From the NCBI GenBank assembly GCA_018242625.1, contig JAFEBO010000008.1, positions 496,001 through 560,000 on the forward strand: DNA of 64,000 bases. The letters are read 5' to 3'. Position numbers and translations under genes: made by a program. This document shows, one piece after another, positions 47,293 through 60,142 of the stretch. The notes under the pieces are model-generated. The model searched no databases and was not told the origin of the DNA. It worked only from the letters and a program-made list of their open reading frames with translations. The stretch is from Planctomycetota bacterium (GTDB lineage: Bacteria > Planctomycetota > Phycisphaerae > Phycisphaerales > UBA1924). Within the stretch, counting starts at the first letter, position 1. Each line of letters opens with the position of its first letter.

Positions 47293-47321
47293 TTGACGGT
47301 CTACGACAAACGTAGTAACTT
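47293..47321 (+). promoter_or_regulatory. Likely promoter of the blaI-like operon
   Basis: A TTGACG at 47293-47298 is followed after 17 bp by TAACTT (47316-47321). The -35 is strong, the -10 matches weakly. The operators described next overlap it, as for blaI promoters. Confidence 0.5.
47302..47317. promoter_or_regulatory. BlaI-type operator 1
   Basis: TACGACAAACGTAGTA is a near-perfect BlaI/MecI box (consensus TACGACA.nTGTAGTA). It lies between the -35 and -10 elements of the promoter for the repressor gene at 47379. It is the first of two copies, which argues for autoregulation by the BlaI-like protein. Confidence 0.85.
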
Positions 47322-47323
47322 CC

Positions 47324-47339
47324 TACGACATCGGTAGTA
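47324..47339. promoter_or_regulatory. BlaI-type operator 2
   Basis: TACGACATCGGTAGTA, a second BlaI/MecI-type box, lies 22 bp downstream of the first, about two helix turns, so two dimers could bind on one face. It covers the expected transcription start. Confidence 0.85.
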
Positions 47340-47378
47340 GAAGGGCGGCGATCGGTCGCGAGCTTCGGAGAGGCGTGT

Positions 47379-47780
47379 ATGGCAAAGAAGCCCATAGAAC
47401 TAGGAGAGGCCGAACTGGCGGTCATGCGGGCCCTCTGGGATCACGGGGCCCAGACCGTCCGCGAGGTCATGAACAGGCTTCACGAGCGGGGCAAAAACGT
47501 CGCGTACACCACCGTGCTGACTTTTCTGACGCGGCTGGAGCAAAAAGGGGTTGTCGCGAGCGACAAGCGGGATCAGGCATATGTGTACAAAGCCCGGATT
47601 TCCCGCCAGAGCGTGACCATCTCGCGCATCAGGTCGCTCGTCGACCAGTTGTACGACGGCGCCGCCGCTCCGATGCTGGCCCAGCTCATCGAGAATGAAC
47701 GCTTCACCCCGGACGAGATCTCCCAGTTGCGAAAGCTGATTGACGACCTGGACCCCAAACACCCGTCGAAGGGGGAGTAA
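47379..47780 (+). CDS. BlaI/MecI/CopY-family transcriptional repressor
   Basis: 133 residues. It has the winged-helix DNA-binding half (ELGEAELAVMRALWDHGAQT, VAYTTVLTFLTRLEQKGVV) followed by YVYKARISRQSV and a C-terminal dimerisation helix pair. These repressors are cleaved by a partner BlaR1-type metalloprotease when the signal is sensed. The next gene, 6 bp later, is exactly that partner. Two palindromic operators lie just upstream at 47302-47339. It probably controls its own operon and may reach the TPR-ExbB-ExbD genes beyond. The inducer is not evident; no beta-lactamase gene is close by. Confidence 0.93.
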   Translation: MAKKPIELGEAELAVMRALWDHGAQTVREVMNRLHERGKNVAYTTVLTFLTRLEQKGVVASDKRDQAYVYKARISRQSVTISRIRSLVDQLYDGAAAPMLAQLIENERFTPDEISQLRKLIDDLDPKHPSKGE

Positions 47781-47786
47781 CCCGAC

Positions 47787-50651
47787 ATGGATGCGGTTTC
47801 TCAAACGCTGCAGGCGCTCTGGATAGGCGGGCTGGCTGCAACCCCGCTCGTGCTTGTCATCGGGCTGGTGTGCAGGGTCCGGATGCTCAGGCCCTCCACC
47901 CGTCACTTGCTCTGGTGTGCCGCTCTGGCCTCGCTCGCGGCGCCGGCGCTGGGGTGGTGGCTTTGGCGTCCGGACTGGTTCCGGTCTGAATCGGTGCTGG
48001 CCGCCGCAGACCGGGCGCTTGGACGCGCCGGGCCTTCGGCCTCAGGAAATGTCGCAGCGGACGTCGGCCCCAGGATGGCGTACGTGGGCCCGCTCCTGCT
48101 GCCGATGGCAGCCAGCCCGGTCAACCTGCACGATCGGGCGGCTGTCCCGACTCTGCTCCCAAGCACGGGCCCGAACGCTGAAGCCCGAAGGCTTGCGTAC
48201 GAACTCCCTTTGCCTCTGCCGGCGACCTATGCGGACGCAAAGTCCGGAGCAGGCGGGACTCCCATGGCGGCCTTGGGAAATCCGGGAGCCGATCGGGGGC
48301 GGGCGGGCGGCTTACTCGCAGGCGGTGTTTCGGGTCGGATTCGGGAACCGGTCATGGCTGCGGTCGGAAGGCACGAATCTCCGAAGGTGCTTGCGCCCGC
48401 GGAGCCGGCGCAACAGGGCTTGAAGACAGAATCCTTGCCGGCGAAGACTGAGACTGCCGACGCTTTCCTAACTGTCGGTGCTGTCGGGCAGTTCCTTCGC
48501 GGGATGGTCGGGAGCCTCGTCGGGTTACGGGACTGGCTGGCGGCCCTTCCTCCACTGCCCGCCGCGATCTGGCTGGGCGGGACCCTATTGCTGGTGGGAG
48601 CAAGCCTTGTACGTACGGTCCTTGCAGCCAGAGCGTTGCGCGATGCGCACCCGGCGGGCAGGGAGATCAAGGTGATGGTGGTGCGAACGAGCCGGTGGGT
48701 GGGGCTGCGTCGCCCGCCGGAGACATTTGTGGTTCATCGCGCCATATCGCCTCTGATCTGGTGCGGGCTCAAAGCAAAGCTTGTTCTGCCTAGGGAACTC
48801 TGGGATTCATTGGATGATGAGTCGAGGCGTGCGGTGCTTGTGCACGAGCTTGCGCACCTCAAGAGGCTGGATCATGTCTGGTGCTGGATCGAGATGCTGA
48901 TCGGTGCCTTGTACTGGTGGCATCCGCTCGCGTGGTGGGCCCGTTTACGCCTTCGGGATGAGGCGGAAGCGAGCTGCGACGCGTGGGTAACGAGCACCCT
49001 GCCCAACAGCAGGCGTGCGTACGCGACCGCCCTGGTCGCGACCAAGTCGTTCGTGAGTATGCGTGGATGGGGAGCTCAACCTTCGCTGGGAATCATGTCC
49101 GGATCGGCCACGAAGATGGCCAGGAGAATCACGATGGTGATGACGCAAAAGCCCGCACCCAAGATGTCGTTTGCAGGCGCCTGTATGGCCGCTTCGGTGG
49201 TCGTCCTCGGCGCGTTTGTCATGCCGGGCGTGGCTTGCCCGCCCGAAGAAGCGTCCGCGAACAAGGCGGCCAAGGCCGAGATGGTCAAGGCAAAGGCGGC
49301 CAAAAACCGCAGCACGCCGGAGGCCGAGTTTCTGGGGGAGGCGCCCGCGCTCGAGGCGATGAAGCGGAACGGCGTGGTTGTCGTGCCGGCCACTCCCTCG
49401 GCCGCGGGAGTACCCGCTGCGCCCGTGGCTCCGGTGGCGCCGGTGGCTCCCAGGGTGCGTGTGAACATCAGCGGTGATGGTCAGTGCGACGCGTCGCGGG
49501 CACATGTCCTGAGCGCGGAGGATGCCAAGGCCGGCAAGGTTGCCCGGGTTTACCGGCTTCCCAAAGGCAAGCTCGATGCTTTCTGGGGCCTGATGAGCAG
49601 GAGCGACGTGCCGGTCTTTGTAGAACGCCGGAGTGGCGACCTGATCGTGATCTACGCTCGCGAGCAGGATCATCCCTCGATCGGTGCGTTCATTACGATC
49701 ATCAATCCCGGCGGCAGCGGTGGTCAAACCCCCGTCGCGGTGCAGGGAAGAGCGGCGGCCAGGGGAGGGTCTGTCACGCCTTCGCTCAATGCTTACCGAA
49801 ATTCGCTGCGAGCGCTCGAAGCCGAGCAAGCGGCCCTTGAGCGTAACGCAGAGCGGATGCGGACGTCGGCCGAGACGCTGCAGTCGCACCATGAGCAACT
49901 CGAGGAGGCAACCCAGCGGCTCAAGGAGCAGGCCGCGGAATTGAAAGAGCAGCAGGCCAAGCGCCTGGTCGAAGGTGCCGCGGCACAAATGAAGGCCCGC
50001 AGCGATGAGGCCCGAGTCCGCGGCAGGGGAGCGGAAAACCAGATCCGTCAGATCGAGCGGCAGATTGAGCAGATCGAGCGTCGCGCCGATGAACTCCGCG
50101 AGAAGATCTCTCAGGCGGAAGACAGTGATGATTCCGAGGGCGCTCTTGCCATGCTCGAGGAGCAGGGTGAAGCGGTCGAGATCGACGCGGACGGGCCTGC
50201 GCAGGTCATCCTGGAAATGGAGCCGGAAGAAGTGATTGGCGCTCCCGAGGGCGACGAAGAGTTCGTCGGCGCTCCGGACACCGGCGACGATGCGATGGCT
50301 GAACCCGACGAAGTGGGCGAAGAGATGGGTGCGACCGACGAGGATCTCGAATCCCCCATGATGAAAGGGCAGTCCGCGGGCGAGCCCAACGACGACGATG
50401 CGGATGATGAAGAGGAAGAGGCCGCGGCACCCGGCACCCCGGTGCCGGCTGTTCCGCCCGCCCCGGCATCCACGGCCCCGGCTCCCGCACCCGTTGCGAC
50501 GCCGACCCCCGCCTCGCCGGCCGCCGCACCAAGCCCGGCCCCGGCTGCGGCCCCGGCTGCTTCTCCGACGCCCGCGGCGGCACCCGCCCCGGCACCTGCT
50601 CCCACACCAACTCCGGCGACTTCGGTGGCGCACGTGAGCCGCACCGCCTGA
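47787..50651 (+). CDS. BlaR1/MecR1-type M56 membrane metalloprotease with coiled-coil sensor region
   Basis: 954 residues. The M56 core has membrane helices near 11-30, 38-58, 257-280 and 461-482, and the zinc motif in RAVLVHELAHLKRLDHVW (His353, Glu354, His357). DEAEASCDAW (with Glu394) gives the probable third ligand. The last helix is followed by a periplasmic half that is not a penicillin-binding (transpeptidase-like) domain. It holds a beta-like segment, then a long charged coiled coil (about 660-770; EQAAELKEQQAKRLVEGAAA) and a very acidic section (about 790-870). The end is a Pro/Ala/Thr low-complexity tail. It likely senses something other than beta-lactam and cleaves the BlaI-type repressor. 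Translated 6 bp after it. Confidence 0.88.
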   Translation: MDAVSQTLQALWIGGLAATPLVLVIGLVCRVRMLRPSTRHLLWCAALASLAAPALGWWLWRPDWFRSESVLAAADRALGRAGPSASGNVAADVGPRMAYVGPLLLPMAASPVNLHDRAAVPTLLPSTGPNAEARRLAYELPLPLPATYADAKSGAGGTPMAALGNPGADRGRAGGLLAGGVSGRIREPVMAAVGRHESPKVLAPAEPAQQGLKTESLPAKTETADAFLTVGAVGQFLRGMVGSLVGLRDWLAALPPLPAAIWLGGTLLLVGASLVRTVLAARALRDAHPAGREIKVMVVRTSRWVGLRRPPETFVVHRAISPLIWCGLKAKLVLPRELWDSLDDESRRAVLVHELAHLKRLDHVWCWIEMLIGALYWWHPLAWWARLRLRDEAEASCDAWVTSTLPNSRRAYATALVATKSFVSMRGWGAQPSLGIMSGSATKMARRITMVMTQKPAPKMSFAGACMAASVVVLGAFVMPGVACPPEEASANKAAKAEMVKAKAAKNRSTPEAEFLGEAPALEAMKRNGVVVVPATPSAAGVPAAPVAPVAPVAPRVRVNISGDGQCDASRAHVLSAEDAKAGKVARVYRLPKGKLDAFWGLMSRSDVPVFVERRSGDLIVIYAREQDHPSIGAFITIINPGGSGGQTPVAVQGRAAARGGSVTPSLNAYRNSLRALEAEQAALERNAERMRTSAETLQSHHEQLEEATQRLKEQAAELKEQQAKRLVEGAAAQMKARSDEARVRGRGAENQIRQIERQIEQIERRADELREKISQAEDSDDSEGALAMLEEQGEAVEIDADGPAQVILEMEPEEVIGAPEGDEEFVGAPDTGDDAMAEPDEVGEEMGATDEDLESPMMKGQSAGEPNDDDADDEEEEAAAPGTPVPAVPPAPASTAPAPAPVATPTPASPAAAPSPAPAAAPAASPTPAAAPAPAPAPTPTPATSVAHVSRTA

Positions 50652-50830
50652 ATCGTTCGAAGCCCTGCTTTGCTGAGCGCAGCTGAGAGCCCCCGTTCTT
50701 GACGGGGGACAGAGTGTCCACGCAACAACCGGAGCGGGGTCGGAAGATCCAGCTCCGGATTCAGAGATTGCCTGATTGCTGGAGAACGGAATTCAAGTTC
50801 CGGCGCGATCGGTGCGCCCGGGAGGCGGCT

Positions 50831-53800
50831 ATGGCTTTCAATCAAACGGTCTGGATTCTTGGACTGCAGTTGGCCTTGTTGACAGGATCCGCTTCGCTGG
50901 CCGGGCCGGTGGAAGAGAAGTCATACCGGGCCGGGATTGGCCTTGCAAACAAGGGGCTGAACGAGCTGGCGGCAGAAGAGCTGCGATCGTTCCTGAAGGC
51001 CGCTCCCGAATCGCCCCACGCGGTCAGCGCCCGGTACACACTCGCGGTTTGCCTTGTGCGGCTCGGAAAACACGAGGAGGCCGCGAAAGAACTCGATCGG
51101 GTTGTCGGAGTTGAAGGATTCGAGTTCGCCGGTGATGCGCTCTTTCTTCGAGCTCAATGCTCCGCTACTCTCGGCGATGATGCTGGTGCCGAGGCCGCGC
51201 TCAAGCGGCTCCTGCACGATCAGCCGGCCTTCAGCCAGGCGGACAGGGCCGTCGTGCTCTACGGCGAGGTTTTGTACCGCCAGGGAAAATATGGACCGGC
51301 CAAGACCCTTCTCTCCCCGTTTGGGCGCAAGTGGCCCCAAAGTCCGGACCGCGACAGGGCCGAATTGTTTCTGGCTCTGTGCGAATTGGGTGCGGGCGAA
51401 GCTCAGGCAAGCGGGCGCCGGTTTGAGGGACTCCTCGCCGGAGCGCCCCAGGGCCCATACGCCGGTCACGCGGCGCTCGGTGCGGCCGATTGCCAGCAGC
51501 GGTTGCAGAATCCAGAGGGCGCGGCCAAGTTTTACGAACTCGCAATCGCTCGCGGTGACGCAAAGGTCAAGGCCGACGCGACGCTTGCCTTGGCGCGACT
51601 TGAACGATCGCGCGGGAACGGCGAAAAAGCCGCGAAGCTTCTGGCAGACGCCGCATCGTTCACGCAGGGTGAGATGGAGCGGGGAGAAGTCGAGCTGGAG
51701 CGGGGCAAACTACTTTACGACTCGGGCAAGATCGGCGATGCCGAGAGCGTCTTCCAGCCTCTGGCAGGGAGAGTTGCAGGAGCCGAGTTGTGGCTTGCAC
51801 GGTGCGCCTCCAGGGCGGGCAGGTATGACCAGGCGATCGTGCAGCTCGATGCGTTAACCCTGGCAGGCGGGCCCCAATTCTCCGATGCTCTGTACGAACG
51901 GGCGGTTGTACTGGTGCAGGCCGGTCGTGACAAAGAGGCGGCCGGAGCCTTTGAACTGTGGGAGCAGCGGTTCCCGTCCGGGGCAATGCGAGCAGATGCG
52001 GTGGCCGCCCGTGCGGCGTGTCTCTACCGGCTTCAGCAGTACGCAGAGAGCAAAGAACTGTGCGAGCGGTTCCTAGGTGAGTATTCGGGGCACGAGCGTG
52101 CGGCGTCGGTGCGTCTGCTGCTTGCAGAGAATCTGTTTCTTTCCGGCGCCTACAGCGACGCTCAGTCGGCCTTTGCCGCGTTCGTAAAGGAATATCCGCA
52201 GGACCCCGGTGTGTGGCGGGCCCGGGTGCGCCGCGGGCTTTGCCTGATCAAACTGGATCGGGGGGAAGCGGGAAAGAAACTGCTGAACAAGGCGCTCGTC
52301 GAAGGTGGACAGGCGCTCGAGCCCGGACTCCGCCGGGTGGCCGCGATGACCCTGGCCGACAGCGCGATCAATGAAAGGGATTGGGCAACTGGAGAAAAGC
52401 TGCTGAGGCCGTTCGTCCCGGAAAGCGGAAACGATGGCGATCTGCTTCTGCGCTACGGAATCTGCCTGGCGAGGCAAGGCAAGAACGCGGAGGCGATTGC
52501 CGCTCTTGATCGGGCCTGTGCCGCCGGGGGGAGCGTGCTGATGCGGTCCAGACTTGAGCGTGGCCAGGCGCTCGCCGCCGCGGGGCGTACGCGGGAAGCG
52601 AGAGAGGATCTGGAAGCGGTGGTGGGTGCGGAGGCCAAATCGGAGTTGGGCGTGCAGGCCCGCCGTAGCCTGGCTTCGATTGCTTCGAGCGAAGGCAGAG
52701 TTTCTGAAGCGGCCGGACTTCTTGCCGATGCGGCGGATTCGGGGGTGCCCGGCGCGCAGGAAATACTTCTCGAGCAGGTCGCGGCGTGGCTGGGCGCGGG
52801 TGAGTTTGCAAAGGCGGAGGCCGGTGCCACGCGCTATCTGGAGGCCGGCGGCAAACAGGTTGCGGAAGCAAAGGTCCGGCGTGCCATCGCGATCAATCGG
52901 CAGGGCCGATCGGATGAAGCGATCCGTCAGCTGGAATCGGTCGCGGGTGAGACGGGGGGTATGGCTGCGGAGTTGGCCGCGGCCGCCCGTTACGAGCTCG
53001 CGTATGCACTGCGGCTTTCGGGCCAGACCAGCCGTGCCGTTGCCGCGTACGAATCGATGCTTCGCGAAAACAGCGGATCCGAACTGGAGGCGCACGCCGG
53101 TCTCGAACTCGCGCAGATCAGGATGGCTGAGGGTGATTTCGAGAGGGCGATCGGCCTTCTCGATCGGGCGAAGCAAGTCGCGAGCCGCATGCCCGAGCGT
53201 GCCGCTGGTCCGGTCAATGAGCGCGAGTTGTATCTTCGCGGATCGTGCCTGTTCCGGATGGGGCGGATGAAGGAATCGGCGGGCGTGCTCGATGAATTTG
53301 TATCTCGGTTTCCGCAGAGCGGGATGCTCTCGAGCGCGCTTGTTTTGCAGGGCGATATCCGGCTTGCCAACGGGAACGCGGCCGAGGCTTCGAGATGCTT
53401 CGAGCGAGTGCTTGCCGGCCAGGCCGGGGCGGATGTCGTGGCGATCGCGCTCTTAAAGCTCGGAGATGCAAAGGCCGCCCTTAAAGACTGGCAGGGCGCG
53501 GAGAAGGCGTACTCCGACTATCTCGCTGCGAACAGCACTTCAGAATTCTGGTTCCAGGCGTCGTTCGGGCTCGGATGGGCGCTCGAGAATCAGGCGAAGT
53601 ATGACGATGCGCTGAAGTGCTACGCCGATGTCGTGGCCCGGCACGAGGGTGTCACCGCCGCCCGGTCGCAGTTTCAGATCGGCGAGTGTTTGTACGCACG
53701 GAAAAAGCTGCCCGAAGCGCTCGCGGCCTTTGCGAAGGTGGACGTTCTGTACGCGTATCCGGAGTGGAGCGCGGCGGCTATCTACGAATCGAGCAGGTGC

Positions 53801-53971
53801 CTTGATGAGCTCGGCAAAGCCGGCGAGGCGGAAGCGCAGCGACAGGACCTCTTGAAGCGATTCCCCGACTCGGCGTGGGCACGGATGGCCGGGGAGCAGC
53901 GGGCGGCACCGCGTCCGACGCTAGGGAGTGCGGACCGGCTTCCGGAAGGCAATCACGGCGGGCGGGAGTGA
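50831..53971 (+). CDS. Large exported TPR-repeat protein
   Basis: 1046 residues, starting at an ATG after gggaggcggct, with signal peptide (NQTVWILGLQLALLTGSASLAG). The mature protein is helical repeats nearly end to end, with TPR/Sel1-like units (LAVCLVRLGKHEEAAKELDR, FLRAQCSATLGDDAGAEAAL, SRCLDELGKAGEAEAQRQDLL). It resembles a much enlarged CpoB/YbgF, the periplasmic TPR partner of the Tol system. Gene order with ExbB, ExbD and a PD40 protein downstream (25 bp, 3 bp and 10 bp gaps) supports that role. No catalytic residues. It starts 179 bp after the BlaR1-like gene, so a second promoter may exist. Confidence 0.85.
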   Translation: MAFNQTVWILGLQLALLTGSASLAGPVEEKSYRAGIGLANKGLNELAAEELRSFLKAAPESPHAVSARYTLAVCLVRLGKHEEAAKELDRVVGVEGFEFAGDALFLRAQCSATLGDDAGAEAALKRLLHDQPAFSQADRAVVLYGEVLYRQGKYGPAKTLLSPFGRKWPQSPDRDRAELFLALCELGAGEAQASGRRFEGLLAGAPQGPYAGHAALGAADCQQRLQNPEGAAKFYELAIARGDAKVKADATLALARLERSRGNGEKAAKLLADAASFTQGEMERGEVELERGKLLYDSGKIGDAESVFQPLAGRVAGAELWLARCASRAGRYDQAIVQLDALTLAGGPQFSDALYERAVVLVQAGRDKEAAGAFELWEQRFPSGAMRADAVAARAACLYRLQQYAESKELCERFLGEYSGHERAASVRLLLAENLFLSGAYSDAQSAFAAFVKEYPQDPGVWRARVRRGLCLIKLDRGEAGKKLLNKALVEGGQALEPGLRRVAAMTLADSAINERDWATGEKLLRPFVPESGNDGDLLLRYGICLARQGKNAEAIAALDRACAAGGSVLMRSRLERGQALAAAGRTREAREDLEAVVGAEAKSELGVQARRSLASIASSEGRVSEAAGLLADAADSGVPGAQEILLEQVAAWLGAGEFAKAEAGATRYLEAGGKQVAEAKVRRAIAINRQGRSDEAIRQLESVAGETGGMAAELAAAARYELAYALRLSGQTSRAVAAYESMLRENSGSELEAHAGLELAQIRMAEGDFERAIGLLDRAKQVASRMPERAAGPVNERELYLRGSCLFRMGRMKESAGVLDEFVSRFPQSGMLSSALVLQGDIRLANGNAAEASRCFERVLAGQAGADVVAIALLKLGDAKAALKDWQGAEKAYSDYLAANSTSEFWFQASFGLGWALENQAKYDDALKCYADVVARHEGVTAARSQFQIGECLYARKKLPEALAAFAKVDVLYAYPEWSAAAIYESSRCLDELGKAGEAEAQRQDLLKRFPDSAWARMAGEQRAAPRPTLGSADRLPEGNHGGRE

Positions 53972-53996: not shown

Positions 53997-54716
53997 ATGA
54001 ACTTGATGAGCGAGAGTTTTGCAGTATTGGGTCAGCAGACGCAGCCGGGTCTCGTTTCGACCGTGCTTGAGATGGTTCTCAAGGGCGGCTGGAGCATGGT
54101 GCCTCTTGGCGTTTGCTCGCTTGTAGCGCTTGCGCTGGTGGTCGAAAGATGGATACTGACCCGGCCGGGACGCATCGCGCCGCCCCCATTCATGGCTTCG
54201 ATCGCGGCGCTCCGGGCGAGTCCGTCGCGGCTGCTTGCGGCATGTGATGCGGACAAGAGCCCTGTGGCGTGCGTCATCGCCGAAGGAGTGCGGGCACGCG
54301 ACGGGTCCCCGGACGAGATCGAAAAGAGGCTGGCGGAGGCGGGGCAACGTCAGGTACTGAAGCTGCGCCATCGAATGAGGCTGATTTCGGTGCTGCCCCA
54401 GGTCGCCACCATGCTGGGGCTGCTGGGAACGGTGGTCGGGATGATCCGCACGTTTACGGTCGTTGCCGCCTCCGCGGAATCGCTGGGAAAAACCGAGAAG
54501 CTCGCGCAGGGCATCTATGAGGCCTGGACCGCGACGGCCGCCGGATTGATCATCGCGATTCCGACTCTGCTTGCGTACCACATCCTGATGGGCAGGATCG
54601 ACGCTGCGGCGGCGGCTTTGGACGCGGCGGCGACGCAGTGGCTGCGACCGAGCGGCGTTGAAGCGCCTTCGACCCGAGAAAGTGTTGAGGGCGAGCTCGC
54701 GCTTGCGGAGGGATAA
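53997..54716 (+). CDS. MotA/TolQ/ExbB proton-channel protein
   Basis: 239 residues with three membrane helices (about 31-51, 129-155 and 172-197), the ExbB/TolQ pattern. The core sequence VLPQVATMLGLLGTVVGMI and IYEAWTATAAGLIIAIPTLL is the MotA_ExbB signature. With the next gene it makes the proton-driven motor. The large cytoplasmic loop (about 60-125) between helix 1 and 2 has the expected charge. The first 25 residues before helix 1 are probably periplasmic. Starts 25 bp after the TPR gene. Confidence 0.93.
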   Translation: MNLMSESFAVLGQQTQPGLVSTVLEMVLKGGWSMVPLGVCSLVALALVVERWILTRPGRIAPPPFMASIAALRASPSRLLAACDADKSPVACVIAEGVRARDGSPDEIEKRLAEAGQRQVLKLRHRMRLISVLPQVATMLGLLGTVVGMIRTFTVVAASAESLGKTEKLAQGIYEAWTATAAGLIIAIPTLLAYHILMGRIDAAAAALDAAATQWLRPSGVEAPSTRESVEGELALAEG

Positions 54717-54719
54717 ATC

Positions 54720-55133
54720 ATGCTCATCCGGAATGCCGAAGCTCGGGATGATTCCCACATCGACTTTGTACCGATGGTCGATGTGCTTTTCAACCTGCTC
54801 ATCTTTTTCCTGATCGCGACCAGCATGGCTCAGACCGAGCGGGAAATGCGCATCGCGTTGCCGCATGCGGCGGCGTCCGGCCCGATCTCGATAGCGATGC
54901 GGGAGATCATCATCAACGTCGATTCGGAAGGGAAGGCGATAGTGGGGGGAAAAGTGATGGATGCCGGGGTACTTGCCGAGACGCTCCGCAGCGCGGTCGC
55001 GGCAAATCCCTCGCAGAAGGTGAGCGTTCGCGGGGACCGCACGACGGCGTATGCAAATGTCGCCCGAGTGCTGGATGTGTGCAAGGGCGCGGGCGTACAG
55101 CAGCCATATCTCGAAACTGTGCCTCTTCGTTGA
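54720..55133 (+). CDS. ExbD/TolR biopolymer-transport protein
   Basis: 137 residues. One membrane helix (about 17-36, FVPMVDVLFNLLIFFLIA) has the catalytic Asp21, at the place of the proton-carrying Asp of ExbD/TolR. The periplasmic domain has KVSVRGDRTTAYANVARVLDVCKGAG, the family's conserved end. It starts 3 bp after the ExbB gene, so both should be made in step. It is the stator partner that transfers force to a periplasmic effector. Which effector is discussed under the next gene. Confidence 0.93.
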   Translation: MLIRNAEARDDSHIDFVPMVDVLFNLLIFFLIATSMAQTEREMRIALPHAAASGPISIAMREIIINVDSEGKAIVGGKVMDAGVLAETLRSAVAANPSQKVSVRGDRTTAYANVARVLDVCKGAGVQQPYLETVPLR

Positions 55134-55143
55134 GGAGGGTGGG

Positions 55144-58100
55144 ATGACGCGGATGGTTCTCAAGCCCGGCGGTAAGGTGGCGGTCACGATCGCGCTCATT
55201 CTGTGCGCCGTGATCACAACGGCCCTTGTGTTCTGGCTGCCGTGGTCCCGTTCGTGGTGGACGGATGGGCGGTCGATCCGGGTTCGAACCAGCGAGATCA
55301 TCCCGCGGCGGATCCTCTGGCAGCCGGCCGTTCCGGTGCGTCCGCAAGCGGGAGCCGAGGAATACGAACCGCGGTTGAGCACCGATGGAACGATGATGCT
55401 GCTGGTGCGGGGCCGAGCCGGGGGTAACGCGGATCTCTACGAATCCGTGCTGTCGAACGGAGCGTGGACCGAGCCTCGCGGGATCGATGAGATCAACACA
55501 AACTCCGACGAACTCGGACCAGAGCTTTCTTCGGATGGAAAAACGCTCTATTTCTACTCCGACAGGCCGGGCGGGCTTGGCGGGTATGACATCTGGATGT
55601 CGAAGCGGGAGGGTGAGAAGTGGGGCACTCCCGTTAATCCCGGCGCGGCGGTGAATAGCCCGGCCAATGAATACGGCCCGGCGGCAGCACCGGATGGTCA
55701 GACGCTCTACTTCGCCTCCAACCGATCGAGGCCCGGCGAAACCGAAGATCGTGGCGTGGAATGGGCCGCGACCCTGCGGGAACGCCGGCACCGGCACGAT
55801 TACGACCTCTACGCCGCGGAGATCCGCGGCCAGGAGATTCTGCCGGCGCGCGCTGTCGCGGAACTCAACACGCCGTTTGACGAGGGTGCCCCCGCATTGA
55901 GCGCAGCGGGTGACTTTGTGTACTTTGCTTCGGATCGACCCGGGGGCTTCGGCGGGTTGGATGTGTACCGCGCGAGGCTGCGCGCCGGAAAGTTCGATGC
56001 TCCGGAAAATCTCGGGCGGGCGGTAAACTCCGATCGGAACGACTTGGACCCGGCGCTGAGCCTGGACGGTTTTCGGCTGTATTTCAGTTCGGATCGCGCG
56101 AGCACTCCGGAGGCACGCGTCTTTGCACTCTGGCAATGCGGCTCACGCGAGGTGTTCGAAGATGTGGAGCGCGTGTCGCACGCCGGGGCGGCACGGGAAC
56201 TCTGGGACAGATTGTGGCCGTGGCTCATCGCGCTGCTGATCGGGCTCGCTTCGGCGGCGCTGCTCTGGCGACTCTGGACCGACGAATTGTGGCGGCGACG
56301 CCTCGGGAGACTCAGCCTCCTGGCTCAGTGTCTTCTCATTTCCATGCTCGTGCACGGTCTGATCGTGTCGGGCCTGGCGGTCTGGAAGGTCGGGAGCGGC
56401 ATCGCGGATGTTCTGAAAGATCCCGGCGGCACGCAGGTGATACTGAGTTCCGCCGGGGCGGGCGGTGAATTGGTTTCCCAGCTTGAAAGCACCGGCAGCG
56501 GGATAGCCGTGCCAGCCCTTTTGGCAACCACATCGGTGCCGGAACTTCCACCGATCCAAACGACATCGACCGCGAGTTCGGTCGATGCGCCGCTGCCCGC
56601 GGCGAATCTGGACGTCACCCCGGCCGTCCAGTTGCCAAGCAGCTCCCGACAGGACGAGCTGACGAATGTTCGTGTCGTTCGGCCTGAATCGGCGCTTCCA
56701 ACGCAAGCCGCGCTGCCTCAGATCGCCCGTGAAGACAGGGCTGAGAGCAAGTTCTCGGTGCAACCGGGGACCACGCCTCATATTGAAGCCGCTCCGGTAG
56801 TGGTTGAGTTGCGTGCACCCGCGTCGAATCTGGATGCTCCGGCGACGTCGACCGGTGCCGCGCCGATGGAGATTCAGCCCGGGCGATCGGCCGCGCGGGA
56901 GTCTGAACCGGCTCGTCGTGCGAGCCTCGAAGTGCGTGCCGTAGGTGGTGAGCGGCTCCCAGCCAGTTCTCCGGCTGCTGTCTCGAATCCGGAGGAGTCT
57001 GCCAGAGTCGACTTGAGCAAGCTGCCTTCGAGCGGTCCGGGGCTTGCGATGACTGAGACCAAGTCTGCCGCGCCGACCGAGTTGGGCCTGCCGCCGGTCG
57101 GAACAGGTGCTGCCGCTTTGGCGCGAAATGAATCCTCGGACCTTTCGCCTCGAATGGATGGACGTCTTGAGGTGCCGAATGAGGCCGCCCGACCGCTTTC
57201 CAAGGCGCTTCAAGAATTGCCACCCACGACAGCGGACGGAGCGGCCACATCGCTCCCCCAACTCACGCCTGGTTCGCAAGCAAATCCGGAGAAGCGTCTC
57301 TCCGCCGCCGATACCGCAGTGCCCGGCTTCTCAGGGGTGGCTCTGGAAACCGTGGGGCGAGTGCGTTCAAACGATGGAAATCTGAAGGCCGGTCTCGAAG
57401 GCGCGAAAAGCACCGAGCAGGCGGCCCTGATGGCCTTTAAGCCCGGCTCGGCACCGGAAGCACGCAGCGCCGCCTCGGGAAGCGCGGCGGTCGCCGCCGC
57501 GCCCCTCGGGATCCAAACGGGCGGGTCCGAAATCCGCATCCCCGCGACTCCGATCGAACCGGTCGAGTCGTTCGCGCAGCGGGCGCCGGAAGTCCGCTCG
57601 GAAACGCTGGAAAAAATGGGAGGGAACGCTCAGACGGAGCGTGCGGTCGGTCGGGCGCTCGAGTGGTTTGCGCGGCACCAGTCCGCGGATGGGAAGTGGT
57701 CGGGCGAATCCTTCGACGATGGCTGCGGTCGCTGCGGAGCGGCGGCCGAGATACATGCGGATGCGGCGCTCACAGGCCTGGTCCTGCTCTGCTATCTGGG
57801 ATCCGGGCACACGCATCAACTCGAGGGGCCGTACAAGGAACGCGTGCAGAAGGGGCTTGAATGGCTGATCGCGAGGCAGAGTGCCAACGGTGATCTGCGA
57901 CGCGGGGAGACGATGTACGGCCAGACGATTGCCGCCGTCGCTCTGTGCGAGGCTTTGGCAATGACGCGAGATCCAGCTCTTGCTGACCCCGCGCGCCTCG
58001 CCGTGCAGTTCGTGCTGCAGACCGCGGCCAAGCCGCGCGATCGCCGAGCGGCCGATGAAGATACTTCGGTGCTTGGGTGGCTCGTCATGACCGTGGAAAG

Positions 58101-58572
58101 CGCTCGCCGCGCCGGCATCGCCGTCCCCCGCGATGTGTTCGCAGCCGCGGACCGTTTCCTGGATTCGGTGGAGACGAACGGCAGATATGCGTACGCACGG
58201 GGTGCGGCACCCAGCCCGGAAATGACCGCGGAAGCGCTCTTTGTGCGGCAGATTGTCGGGCACGAGCGGAGCGAACCCCGGATGTCTGCCTCGGCCGAAT
58301 TCGTTCTCGCCACAAAGCCCAGGTGGGAGAACGGAGCTCCGACCTATCACTGGTATTACGCGACTCTCTCGCTCTTCCAGCAGCAGGGCCAGTCATGGAA
58401 TGCCTGGAACGAAGCGCTGATGCCGCAACTGGTTGGCCATCAGAGGACCGATGGTCCCGCAGCGGGAAGCTGGGATCCGCAGGACGAATGGTCGCGGCTG
58501 GGAGGGCGTGTGTATCAGACCGCCATATGCACGCTGAGCCTGGAGGTTTACTACCGCTACAAACCGCGGTGA
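55144..58572 (+). CDS. Giant membrane protein: PD40 (TolB-like) domain, paired helices, long linker, terpene-cyclase-like toroid
   Basis: 1142 residues. Helix 1 (about 9-31) anchors the N-terminus. Residues about 70-345 are PD40/TolB-like propeller repeats (ELGPELSSDGKTLYFYSDRP, EYGPAAAPDGQTLYFASNRS, EGAPALSAAGDFVYFASDRP). Helices 2 (about 358-378) and 3 (about 391-412) are joined by a short basic cytoplasmic loop (DELWRRRLGR). By the positive-inside rule the PD40 domain and everything after helix 3 are periplasmic. A roughly 400-residue Ala/Pro/Ser/Glu linker leads to an alpha/alpha toroid (about 824-1142) like prenyltransferase/squalene-hopene-cyclase repeats (LEWFARHQSADGKWSGESF, YGQTIAAVALCEALAMT). 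The DxDD acid motif of hopene cyclases is not seen, so it is probably a binding domain. Encoded 10 bp after ExbD. Role in force transduction is inferred. Confidence 0.8.
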   Translation: MTRMVLKPGGKVAVTIALILCAVITTALVFWLPWSRSWWTDGRSIRVRTSEIIPRRILWQPAVPVRPQAGAEEYEPRLSTDGTMMLLVRGRAGGNADLYESVLSNGAWTEPRGIDEINTNSDELGPELSSDGKTLYFYSDRPGGLGGYDIWMSKREGEKWGTPVNPGAAVNSPANEYGPAAAPDGQTLYFASNRSRPGETEDRGVEWAATLRERRHRHDYDLYAAEIRGQEILPARAVAELNTPFDEGAPALSAAGDFVYFASDRPGGFGGLDVYRARLRAGKFDAPENLGRAVNSDRNDLDPALSLDGFRLYFSSDRASTPEARVFALWQCGSREVFEDVERVSHAGAARELWDRLWPWLIALLIGLASAALLWRLWTDELWRRRLGRLSLLAQCLLISMLVHGLIVSGLAVWKVGSGIADVLKDPGGTQVILSSAGAGGELVSQLESTGSGIAVPALLATTSVPELPPIQTTSTASSVDAPLPAANLDVTPAVQLPSSSRQDELTNVRVVRPESALPTQAALPQIAREDRAESKFSVQPGTTPHIEAAPVVVELRAPASNLDAPATSTGAAPMEIQPGRSAARESEPARRASLEVRAVGGERLPASSPAAVSNPEESARVDLSKLPSSGPGLAMTETKSAAPTELGLPPVGTGAAALARNESSDLSPRMDGRLEVPNEAARPLSKALQELPPTTADGAATSLPQLTPGSQANPEKRLSAADTAVPGFSGVALETVGRVRSNDGNLKAGLEGAKSTEQAALMAFKPGSAPEARSAASGSAAVAAAPLGIQTGGSEIRIPATPIEPVESFAQRAPEVRSETLEKMGGNAQTERAVGRALEWFARHQSADGKWSGESFDDGCGRCGAAAEIHADAALTGLVLLCYLGSGHTHQLEGPYKERVQKGLEWLIARQSANGDLRRGETMYGQTIAAVALCEALAMTRDPALADPARLAVQFVLQTAAKPRDRRAADEDTSVLGWLVMTVESARRAGIAVPRDVFAAADRFLDSVETNGRYAYARGAAPSPEMTAEALFVRQIVGHERSEPRMSASAEFVLATKPRWENGAPTYHWYYATLSLFQQQGQSWNAWNEALMPQLVGHQRTDGPAAGSWDPQDEWSRLGGRVYQTAICTLSLEVYYRYKPR

Positions 58573-58901: not shown

Positions 58902-59383
58902 CTGTAGCAAAGACGCCCCGCCGAAAGGCGGTGCGTCCGTGGGAAGATTTGAAACTGATTAGCCCGCAAGTCAGCGAATCGCTGCCCGAGGAGCCTTTTC
59001 TGACAATCCTCACGAGCTACGAAGGCCACCAGACCCTAACAACAACGCCACAAAGTTGTGGAAGCCCCTTCATCGAAAAGCGGGTTCTGCAGACCACGGC
59101 AAAAGAAAGCCGTCTGTAGCCTATTTGAATGGTGCCGGCGAGCCCGTCGGGTCAGGGGTGGCTCATTTCAGTGCGCAGGAAAGCAATGATCTGCAGCCTA
59201 ACAGCCCGCTAAATGGCCAAAGTTTATGTTCGCTCTTGTATTTACCTGCCGCGGTGAGGACAATGGATTCCTCACGCGTGTTTCCAAAGAGAAAGCAACG
59301 CGTCTTGGAATCGCGGAATGTCCGGGCCCGGTCGGGCTCAATGCCTTTGGAACCGCGAGCATTTGGCTAAAGAGAGGGTGGAG

Positions 59384-60142
59384 ATGAGAACTATTTCTTC
59401 GATAGGCGTGGCGGTGATTGCGCTCACAAGCGTCCAAGCGAGCGCGGCGTTTCTCGGTACGGCGCAGAGCTTTGGCGTCCTCGCCGGCTCGACAGTAACC
59501 AACACCGGGCTCACCTCCGTCAGCGGCAACGTCGGTGTTTGGCCCGGAACCGCGATCACGGGGTTCCCGCCGGGCGTCGTCACCAATGGCACCTTCCACG
59601 CGAGCGATGCGGTCGCTCAGACTGCTCAAGCTGATGCGCTCAGCGCGTTCAACGCGCTTGCATCCATGGCGCCAACAACGGTGCTTACCGGTACCGATCT
59701 AGGTGGGCTGACTCTCACCCCCGGGGTTTACTTCTTCGCCAGTTCCGCTTTTCTCACCGGCACGCTGCGGCTTGACGCGCAGGGCAACCCAAACGCGCTC
59801 TTTGTATTCCAGATGGGCTCCACGCTCATTTCTGCGAGCAATTCGTCGGTTCTCACCATCAACGCCGCCGATGACTGCAATGTGTATTGGCAGGTCGGCA
59901 GCTCCGCGACCTTGGGAACCGATTCGGCATTCCAAGGCAACATCCTCGCCAACGCCAGTATCACAATGAATACTCGGGCATCTCTCATCGGTGGCCGCGC
60001 CCTGGCTCTCAATGGGGCTGTGACACTCGACTCCAACATCATCGAAGCGGGATGCCTCGACATCCCCGCCCCCGGTGGAATTGCCGCGGGCTTCATGGCC
60101 TTGGCAGTAACGGGGTTCGGCGGGCGCCGGCGAAGGGCCTGA
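59384..60142 (+). CDS. Exported ice-binding-like (DUF3494) protein with PEP-CTERM-like tail
   Basis: 252 residues with a signal peptide (SSIGVAVIALTSVQASA). The body is the DUF3494 beta-solenoid: FGVLAGSTVTNTGLTSVSGN, VGVWPGTAITGFPPG, LGGLTLTPGVYFFASSAFLTG, NALFVFQMGSTL, CNVYWQVGSSATLGTDSAF and GRALALNGAVTLDSNII are all family marks. Characterised members bind ice; many others from non-polar bacteria act in adhesion. The C-terminus IPAPGGIAAGFMALAVTGFG then GRRRRA is a PEP-CTERM-like anchor, so the protein should be held at the envelope. The ATG at 59384 follows a strong ribosome site. Confidence 0.9.
   Translation: MRTISSIGVAVIALTSVQASAAFLGTAQSFGVLAGSTVTNTGLTSVSGNVGVWPGTAITGFPPGVVTNGTFHASDAVAQTAQADALSAFNALASMAPTTVLTGTDLGGLTLTPGVYFFASSAFLTGTLRLDAQGNPNALFVFQMGSTLISASNSSVLTINAADDCNVYWQVGSSATLGTDSAFQGNILANASITMNTRASLIGGRALALNGAVTLDSNIIEAGCLDIPAPGGIAAGFMALAVTGFGGRRRRA

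Follow-up and report, generated by a model that had tools for sequence, protein, structure and literature searches.

Receptors of the BlaR1 type are known chiefly for sensing antibiotics. In Staphylococcus aureus, the membrane protease BlaR1 cuts the repressor BlaI directly, at the scissile bond Asn101-Phe102, and its sensor domain is cut by signal peptidase (PMC9834060). For the CopY/CopR repressors, an operator consensus, RNYKACANNTGTMRNY, has been published (PMC7253601). Among the envelope motors, TonB and TolA bind the motor through the residues of the SHLS motif, and bacteria of the Planctomycetes-Verrucomicrobia-Chlamydiae (PVC) group possess clusters, with no function assigned, that encode a tetratricopeptide repeat (TPR) protein, TolQ-like and TolR-like proteins, and a vWA transducer with an SHLS helix (PMC12204202). 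Here, we describe a locus where a BlaI repressor and an M56-family membrane protease precede the genes of such a motor. It lies in a 64,000-nucleotide stretch of DNA ("the window") from a Planctomycetota bacterium (GenBank assembly GCA_018242625.1, contig JAFEBO010000008.1, positions 496,001 to 560,000 of the forward strand), to which all coordinates refer; the source genome comprises 3.76 Mb in 12 contigs. A first-pass annotation of the window had proposed a switch of the BlaI/BlaR1 type that has another sensor and is linked to the motor genes, and this proposal is borne out by 36 loci with unlinked flanks and by a control set of 16 other BlaI-M56 pairs. In the open-access literature, no paper on this switch-motor arrangement was found.

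Results

Conservation of the switch-motor block

The same order, boxes-BlaI-M56 protease (with a small exported domain)-TPR-ExbB-ExbD-transducer, all on one strand, was found at 36 Phycisphaerales loci, including the window, from families f1 and f2. This count covers the f1 and f2 loci for which the upstream region is available and includes a few loci with a single or imperfect box, one that ends at a contig edge after the TPR gene (L052), and one in which exbB and exbD were undetected (L126). The genes that flank the block are common to three or fewer of the 36 loci, and the repressor was found at every locus where its position is covered. Two samples were drawn, one of 61 relatives and one of 400 genomes of the order. 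Among the 61 relatives, the transducer orthologues in the family of the source genome occur in the same 12 genomes as the BlaI-M56 pair, and the other sampled genomes of that family have neither orthologue; in the larger sample, the transducer domain was detected in 54 of the 400 genomes. For comparison, 16 BlaI-M56 pairs outside the block were taken as controls, either in the same genomes or in relatives, and these have no small domain, no motor, and no promoter boxes; a seventeenth locus (L186), itself a further motor-linked copy, was excluded from the set. In evolutionary terms, the link between the switch and the motor is real.

The motor is more widely distributed than the switch. Two further families of the order possess the motor genes without the BlaI-M56 pair (L085 and L124). 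In the rest of the phylum, 20 loci encoding a protein with the toroid C-terminal domain of the transducer were collected; an ExbD gene is present in 14 and an ExbB gene was detected in seven, many have the S-x3-H helix described below, and neither BlaI nor M56 was found in any of the 20. Because a total of 22 motor-type loci outside f1 and f2 have no switch, the switch was probably added later, in one lineage, to an older motor and then stayed. The tie that the first-pass annotation drew between motor and switch stands as far as gene order goes, with the qualification that the motor is older and occurs across the phylum without the switch.

The repressor and its boxes

The blaI gene (47379..47780, plus strand) encodes a 133-amino-acid (aa) BlaI-type repressor (Pfam Penicillinase_R, E = 2.8e-32, above the cut-off) that aligns with the solved BlaI structure 1sd4 across residues 1-126 (E = 9.7e-14) and also matches the solved S. 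aureus MecI along its length. A sigma-70-like promoter is recognizable in the sequence before it (47293..47321, plus strand), with TTGACG at 47293-47298, a 17-nt spacer, and TAACTT at 47316-47321. The first-pass annotation had placed two BlaI boxes 22 bp apart on this promoter, and both were recovered exactly. Box 1, TACGACAAACGTAGTA (47302..47317), is located within the spacer and overlaps the -10 element; box 2, TACGACATCGGTAGTA (47324..47339), is located just 3' of the -10 element, over the probable transcript start. Each box is 16 bp long, the distance from start to start is 22 bp, and both are exact fits to TACGACNNNNGTAGTA. These palindromic operators on the repressor's own promoter are predicted BlaI sites; allowing one mismatch, 0.04 matches to the pattern are expected in the shuffled window. 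The layout -35/box/-10/box is alike in most relatives when the promoters are aligned, and in an automatic scan, 26 of 35 relatives showed TTGAC[AG], 17 nt, and TAnnnT ahead of blaI, with TTGCCA in L121.

A search for the same boxes elsewhere, as the first-pass annotation had suggested, yielded two exact matches to TACGACNNNNGTAGTA in the whole 3.76-Mb genome, both at the blaI promoter and zero outside it. When 12 genomes were scanned with the exact pattern, all matches were at the block promoter (the source genome has two), and the same scan gave zero exact matches in two genomes with the motor and without the switch. No additional box was found elsewhere in the motor-linked loci at one mismatch or fewer; the few "far" matches are boxes beside blaI, the start of which had been set too early by the script. 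A wider BlaI regulon was considered and rejected at this stringency, there being no exact box elsewhere and one-mismatch matches being at the genome background level. In genome G060, two other BlaI-M56 pairs (L090 and L091) have versions of the box near blaI that match a loose pattern with one mismatch, and therefore the box type is not wholly private to the block.

The source genome also encodes a second BlaI-M56 pair (locus L013, 7767-9609, on G000:C3, minus strand), with a shorter protease of ~480 aa. A perfect palindrome, CACTACATTTGTAGTG, is located ~20 nt 5' of the second blaI (L013, 9629-9644). Because its half-site differs from that of the motor-linked boxes, cross-talk between the two appears unlikely.

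An M56 protease with a different exported half

The gene downstream of blaI (47787..50651, plus strand) encodes a 954-aa M56 membrane protease with an exported sensor arm (Pfam Peptidase_M56, E = 2.8e-26); its match to the NCBIfam model blaR1_generic (3e-17) is under the cut-off of that model. In the AlphaFold model, the transmembrane and zinc-protease half, aa 7-443 (47805..49115, plus strand), is superimposable on S. aureus BlaR1 (8ext) with Z = 18.7 over 235 residues (root mean square deviation of 3.8, 13% identity). The zinc motif HELAH, correctly identified by the first-pass annotation, occupies aa 353-357 (48843..48857, plus strand). All 38 motor-linked proteins have HELAH or HEMAH and an Asp five residues later; 36 of them match a pair of Arg residues that precedes the last transmembrane helix, and 35 match a Tyr. 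The window protein likewise has Glu where BlaR1 has its zinc ligand Glu242. A coupled Phe-to-Leu/Met change at the BlaR1 autocleavage and BlaI cleavage residues was considered and dropped, the autocleavage position being unconserved among relatives.

Straight after the last transmembrane helix, a conserved segment, PG[LV]ACPPE (window ~49221-49247, aa 479-487), looks like a candidate signal-peptidase site. A second motif, FxGEAPALEAM, follows 30 to 60 residues past that helix (window ~49326-49361, aa 514-525) and is kept across the genus and in several other family members.

The exported half had been described as a coiled coil, an acidic part, and a Pro/Ala tail. All of these are present, and a conserved folded domain between the membrane and the coiled coil had been overlooked. 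This candidate sensor domain, denoted SENS (aa 582-645; 49530..49721, plus strand), is defined by the alignments and the model, spans ~65 aa, and is modeled as beta-alpha-beta-beta-alpha with a mean predicted local distance difference test (pLDDT) score of 84.9. In an alignment of 44 domains, it shows the consensus Y-x-L-x2-G-K-x2-A-x3-L-M-x-R-x-D-V-P..., with ten invariant or nearly invariant positions. It is the best conserved module of the exported half, is present in 38 of 38 motor-linked M56 proteins (in tandem in nine), and has a single copy in the source genome, in the window protein. The domain is followed by two long helices modeled as a coiled coil (aa 664-791; 49776..50159, plus strand) and by a disordered tail, acidic and then Pro/Ala rich (aa 792-954; 50160..50648, plus strand; pLDDT < 50).

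Searches with the small domain gave weak or ambiguous signals. One of the 44 domains matches Secretin_N (PF03958; E = 0.009), comparison with the secretin domains of the same genome gave an hhalign probability of 53% over 31 columns, and a search of solved structures returned numerous small alpha/beta folds, such as PII-like, CutA, and ferredoxin-like ones, with Z of ~7 to 8, none of them prominent; the Secretin_N label was therefore left unassigned. No known peptidoglycan-binding family matches the domain. The exported half has no transpeptidase or beta-lactamase match in Pfam and no fold like that of a penicillin-binding protein (PBP) in the model, and structure comparison likewise detected none in the C-terminal half. 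The absence of a penicillin-binding domain, which the first-pass annotation had asserted, is thus upheld, and the window M56 protein is not a beta-lactam receptor.

The motor genes and the preceding gap

The motor genes follow on the plus strand. The first encodes a 1,046-aa TPR protein (50831..53971), for which the best NCBIfam model is YbgF (2.8e-62, above the cut-off); it is followed by genes for an ExbB/TolQ-type motor protein (53997..54716; Pfam MotA_ExbB, E = 3.1e-24) and an ExbD/TolR-type motor protein (54720..55133; Pfam ExbD, E = 5.4e-26). The last gene (55144..58572) encodes a probable force transducer that consists of a propeller (PD40, E = 6.8e-37), an S-x3-H helix, a long linker, and an alpha/alpha-toroid C-terminal domain (SQHop_cyclase_C, E = 1.5e-4). 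The nearest NCBIfam models are TolQ for ExbB, TolR for ExbD, and PorE/CHU_0125 and TolB for the propeller, all far below the cut-offs. The first-pass annotation had rightly placed motor genes after the protease, the TPR gene coming first, and had overlooked that the last gene is TonB-like in character.

That character resides in the transducer helix, SMLVHGLIVSGL at aa 400, which fits the pattern S-x3-H-x6-L. The spacing of the SHLS residues is that of E. coli TonB. The Ser and His are conserved and the Leu mostly so; the final Ser of SHLS is absent, its position being taken by Lys in the window and, in most relatives, by Lys, Arg, Gln, or Gly. At the C terminus, the domain lacks the TonB/TolA fold and matches squalene-cyclase-like toroids. 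Proteins that combine the S-x3-H helix with such a toroid are widespread in the phylum (window 55144-58572; L159-L178), most of them encoded beside ExbD, and might represent a class of transducers additional to the published vWA class.

The gap between the protease and the motor genes (50652..50830) contains neither a box nor a detectable sigma-70-like promoter. A strong separate promoter here had been named in the first-pass annotation as an observation that would speak against the switch covering the motor. A scan of the gaps at all 36 loci, the window and 35 relatives, gave best scores at the shuffle level (mean of 1.64 versus 1.47), and the same scan does recover the blaI promoter. In the genus, alignment of L044-L048 shows, right at the stop codon of the protease gene, an invariant GACCTCC(A/T)TCGCGA, the complement of a Shine-Dalgarno sequence, and also a hairpin, CACGCC...GGCG, read by eye, that has changes on either side and lacks a T-run; neither was seen in the window's own, more diverged gap. 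The motif and hairpin could possibly constitute an attenuation or translational-coupling element that tunes the expression of the switch against that of the motor.

Genes outside the block

DXS and NAD kinase genes are located 5' of the boxes in the window; these are accidental neighbors, because they are not beside the block in relatives. The first gene after the motor genes (59318-60142), outside the conserved block, encodes a secreted protein that resembles DUF3494 ice-binding proteins by eye.

Discussion

With moderate confidence, we favor the reading that the locus encodes a BlaI/BlaR1-type anti-repressor switch with an exchanged sensor, which would serve a Tol/TonB-like motor of the envelope as its resident regulator and induce switch and motor together. 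BlaI dimers are strongly predicted to hold down the blaI promoter via the two boxes over the -35 element, the -10 element, and the start. By homology, the exported arm of the M56 protein (small domain, coiled coil, and tail) would receive a signal outside the cytoplasmic membrane, and the cytoplasm-facing zinc site, as in BlaR1, would then cut BlaI. Transcription from the one promoter would rise and read through blaI and the protease gene into the TPR, exbB, exbD, and transducer genes, with newly made BlaI acting as a brake. We infer read-through because the boxes are unique, the gene order is conserved, and there is no obvious second promoter; given that the only exact boxes are on the blaI promoter, it is the simplest route to a target beyond BlaI and the protease. 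A tandem duplication of TPR-ExbB-ExbD-transducer behind a single M56 gene at one locus (L120, G393:C99) is also counted in favor of this reading. As the sensor domain was found only alongside the motor, the most likely class of signal is the condition of the envelope or of the motor. Tentatively, the loop might even be closed, such that the small domain, at times in tandem, directly reads the motor or transducer (its assembly, its tension, or how far it extends toward the outer membrane) and the cutting of BlaI adjusts the output of the whole machine. If so, proteolytic anti-repression would respond to a mechanical or assembly signal and not to a drug.

Several observations weigh against an inducing switch that covers the motor. 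In the alignment, Gln102-Leu103 of the window BlaI takes the place of the S. aureus bond Asn101-Phe102, and the Glu242 position is Asp in many relatives, so that protease activity is uncertain in some of them. At most loci, 43 to 325 nt separate the protease gene from the motor genes, which exceeds the spacing of a tight operon, and the gaps of relatives carry the conserved hairpin-forming sequence; a transcription break or attenuation is therefore possible. The promoter scan covered the sigma-70 type only. Such motors occur in other lineages without the switch, and every named relative that bears the block, all from Phycisphaerales/Phycisphaerae (Planctomycetota), is a metagenome or environmental assembly.

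The same gaps, with their conserved structure in the genus, lend some weight to a rather unlikely alternative, namely, that the switch regulates only itself, that the motor has its own promoter of a type not scanned, and that the linkage is that of a co-inherited complex. The exported arm of the M56 protein would then be a working part of the motor (a chaperone, protease, or brake) with a homeostatic repressor, and the confinement of the boxes to blaI and an arm long enough for a structural role both fit. However, the gap contains no promoter signal, and it would be odd for a regulator concerned only with itself to be kept beside the motor at 36 loci, with the repressor in every locus where its position is covered. 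The BlaI/BlaR1 ancestry might instead suggest a classic peptidoglycan or beta-lactam stress switch that senses wall damage indirectly and drives envelope repair by the motor, and Tol-like genes (TPR resembling YbgF, ExbB resembling TolQ, ExbD resembling TolR, and a propeller resembling TolB/PorE) suit a role in envelope stability. We consider this improbable, given that the penicillin-binding domain is absent, the linked genes include neither a beta-lactamase nor a PBP, and the sensor domain has no match to a known peptidoglycan-binding family. Finally, BlaI-M56 pairs are common in these genomes, and the upstream DXS and NAD kinase genes are themselves accidental neighbors, so the pair could be an ordinary one that happens to adjoin unrelated motor genes. 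This is scarcely credible: order and strand are constant at 36 loci in differing genomic contexts, the sensor domain and exact boxes are limited to motor-linked copies among those compared, and accident was rejected for the group on the 36-locus order, the unlinked flanks, and the 16-pair control.

The favored reading, a resident inducing switch, can be set against the described systems. The window pair resembles BlaI/BlaR1 and MecI/MecR1 of S. aureus and Bacillus licheniformis in the boxes over the repressor's own promoter, the membrane M56 HExxH zinc protease, the transmembrane/protease fold, and the exported C-terminal half. In place of the class-D-like penicillin-binding sensor of these receptors, however, the window protein has a small conserved domain, a coiled coil, and a tail; the scissile Asn-Phe of S. 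aureus BlaI is replaced by Gln-Leu; and the linked genes encode not a beta-lactamase or PBP2a target but TPR, ExbB, ExbD, and transducer proteins. A variant with another conserved sensor and other linked genes suggests that the logic of the membrane protease is used in envelope physiology. CopY/CopR belong to the same repressor family and have palindromic operators of 16 bp, often in pairs, close to the promoter; the window pair differs in its linked protease and in a BlaI that lacks the CxC metal motifs of CopY.

Likewise, the motor shares with Tol-Pal and ExbBD-TonB the ExbB/TolQ and ExbD/TolR proteins, the YbgF-like TPR protein, the TolB/PorE-like propeller, and a helix that retains three residues of the SHLS motif of TonB/TolA (Ser, His, and Leu), whereas the last Ser is replaced by Lys, the C terminus is a toroid, and propeller and transducer are fused in one protein. 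The window cluster is a sister arrangement to the PVC vWA clusters: both combine TPR, TolQ-like, and TolR-like proteins with an SHLS-helix transducer bearing a foreign C-terminal domain. The window cluster, in contrast, has a toroid instead of vWA, an added propeller, a single ExbD in place of the TolR pair, and BlaI/M56 in front. The switch would also bring regulation to a little-known kind of TonB-like motor, one that ends in a foreign C-terminal domain and is found across the planctomycete phylum.

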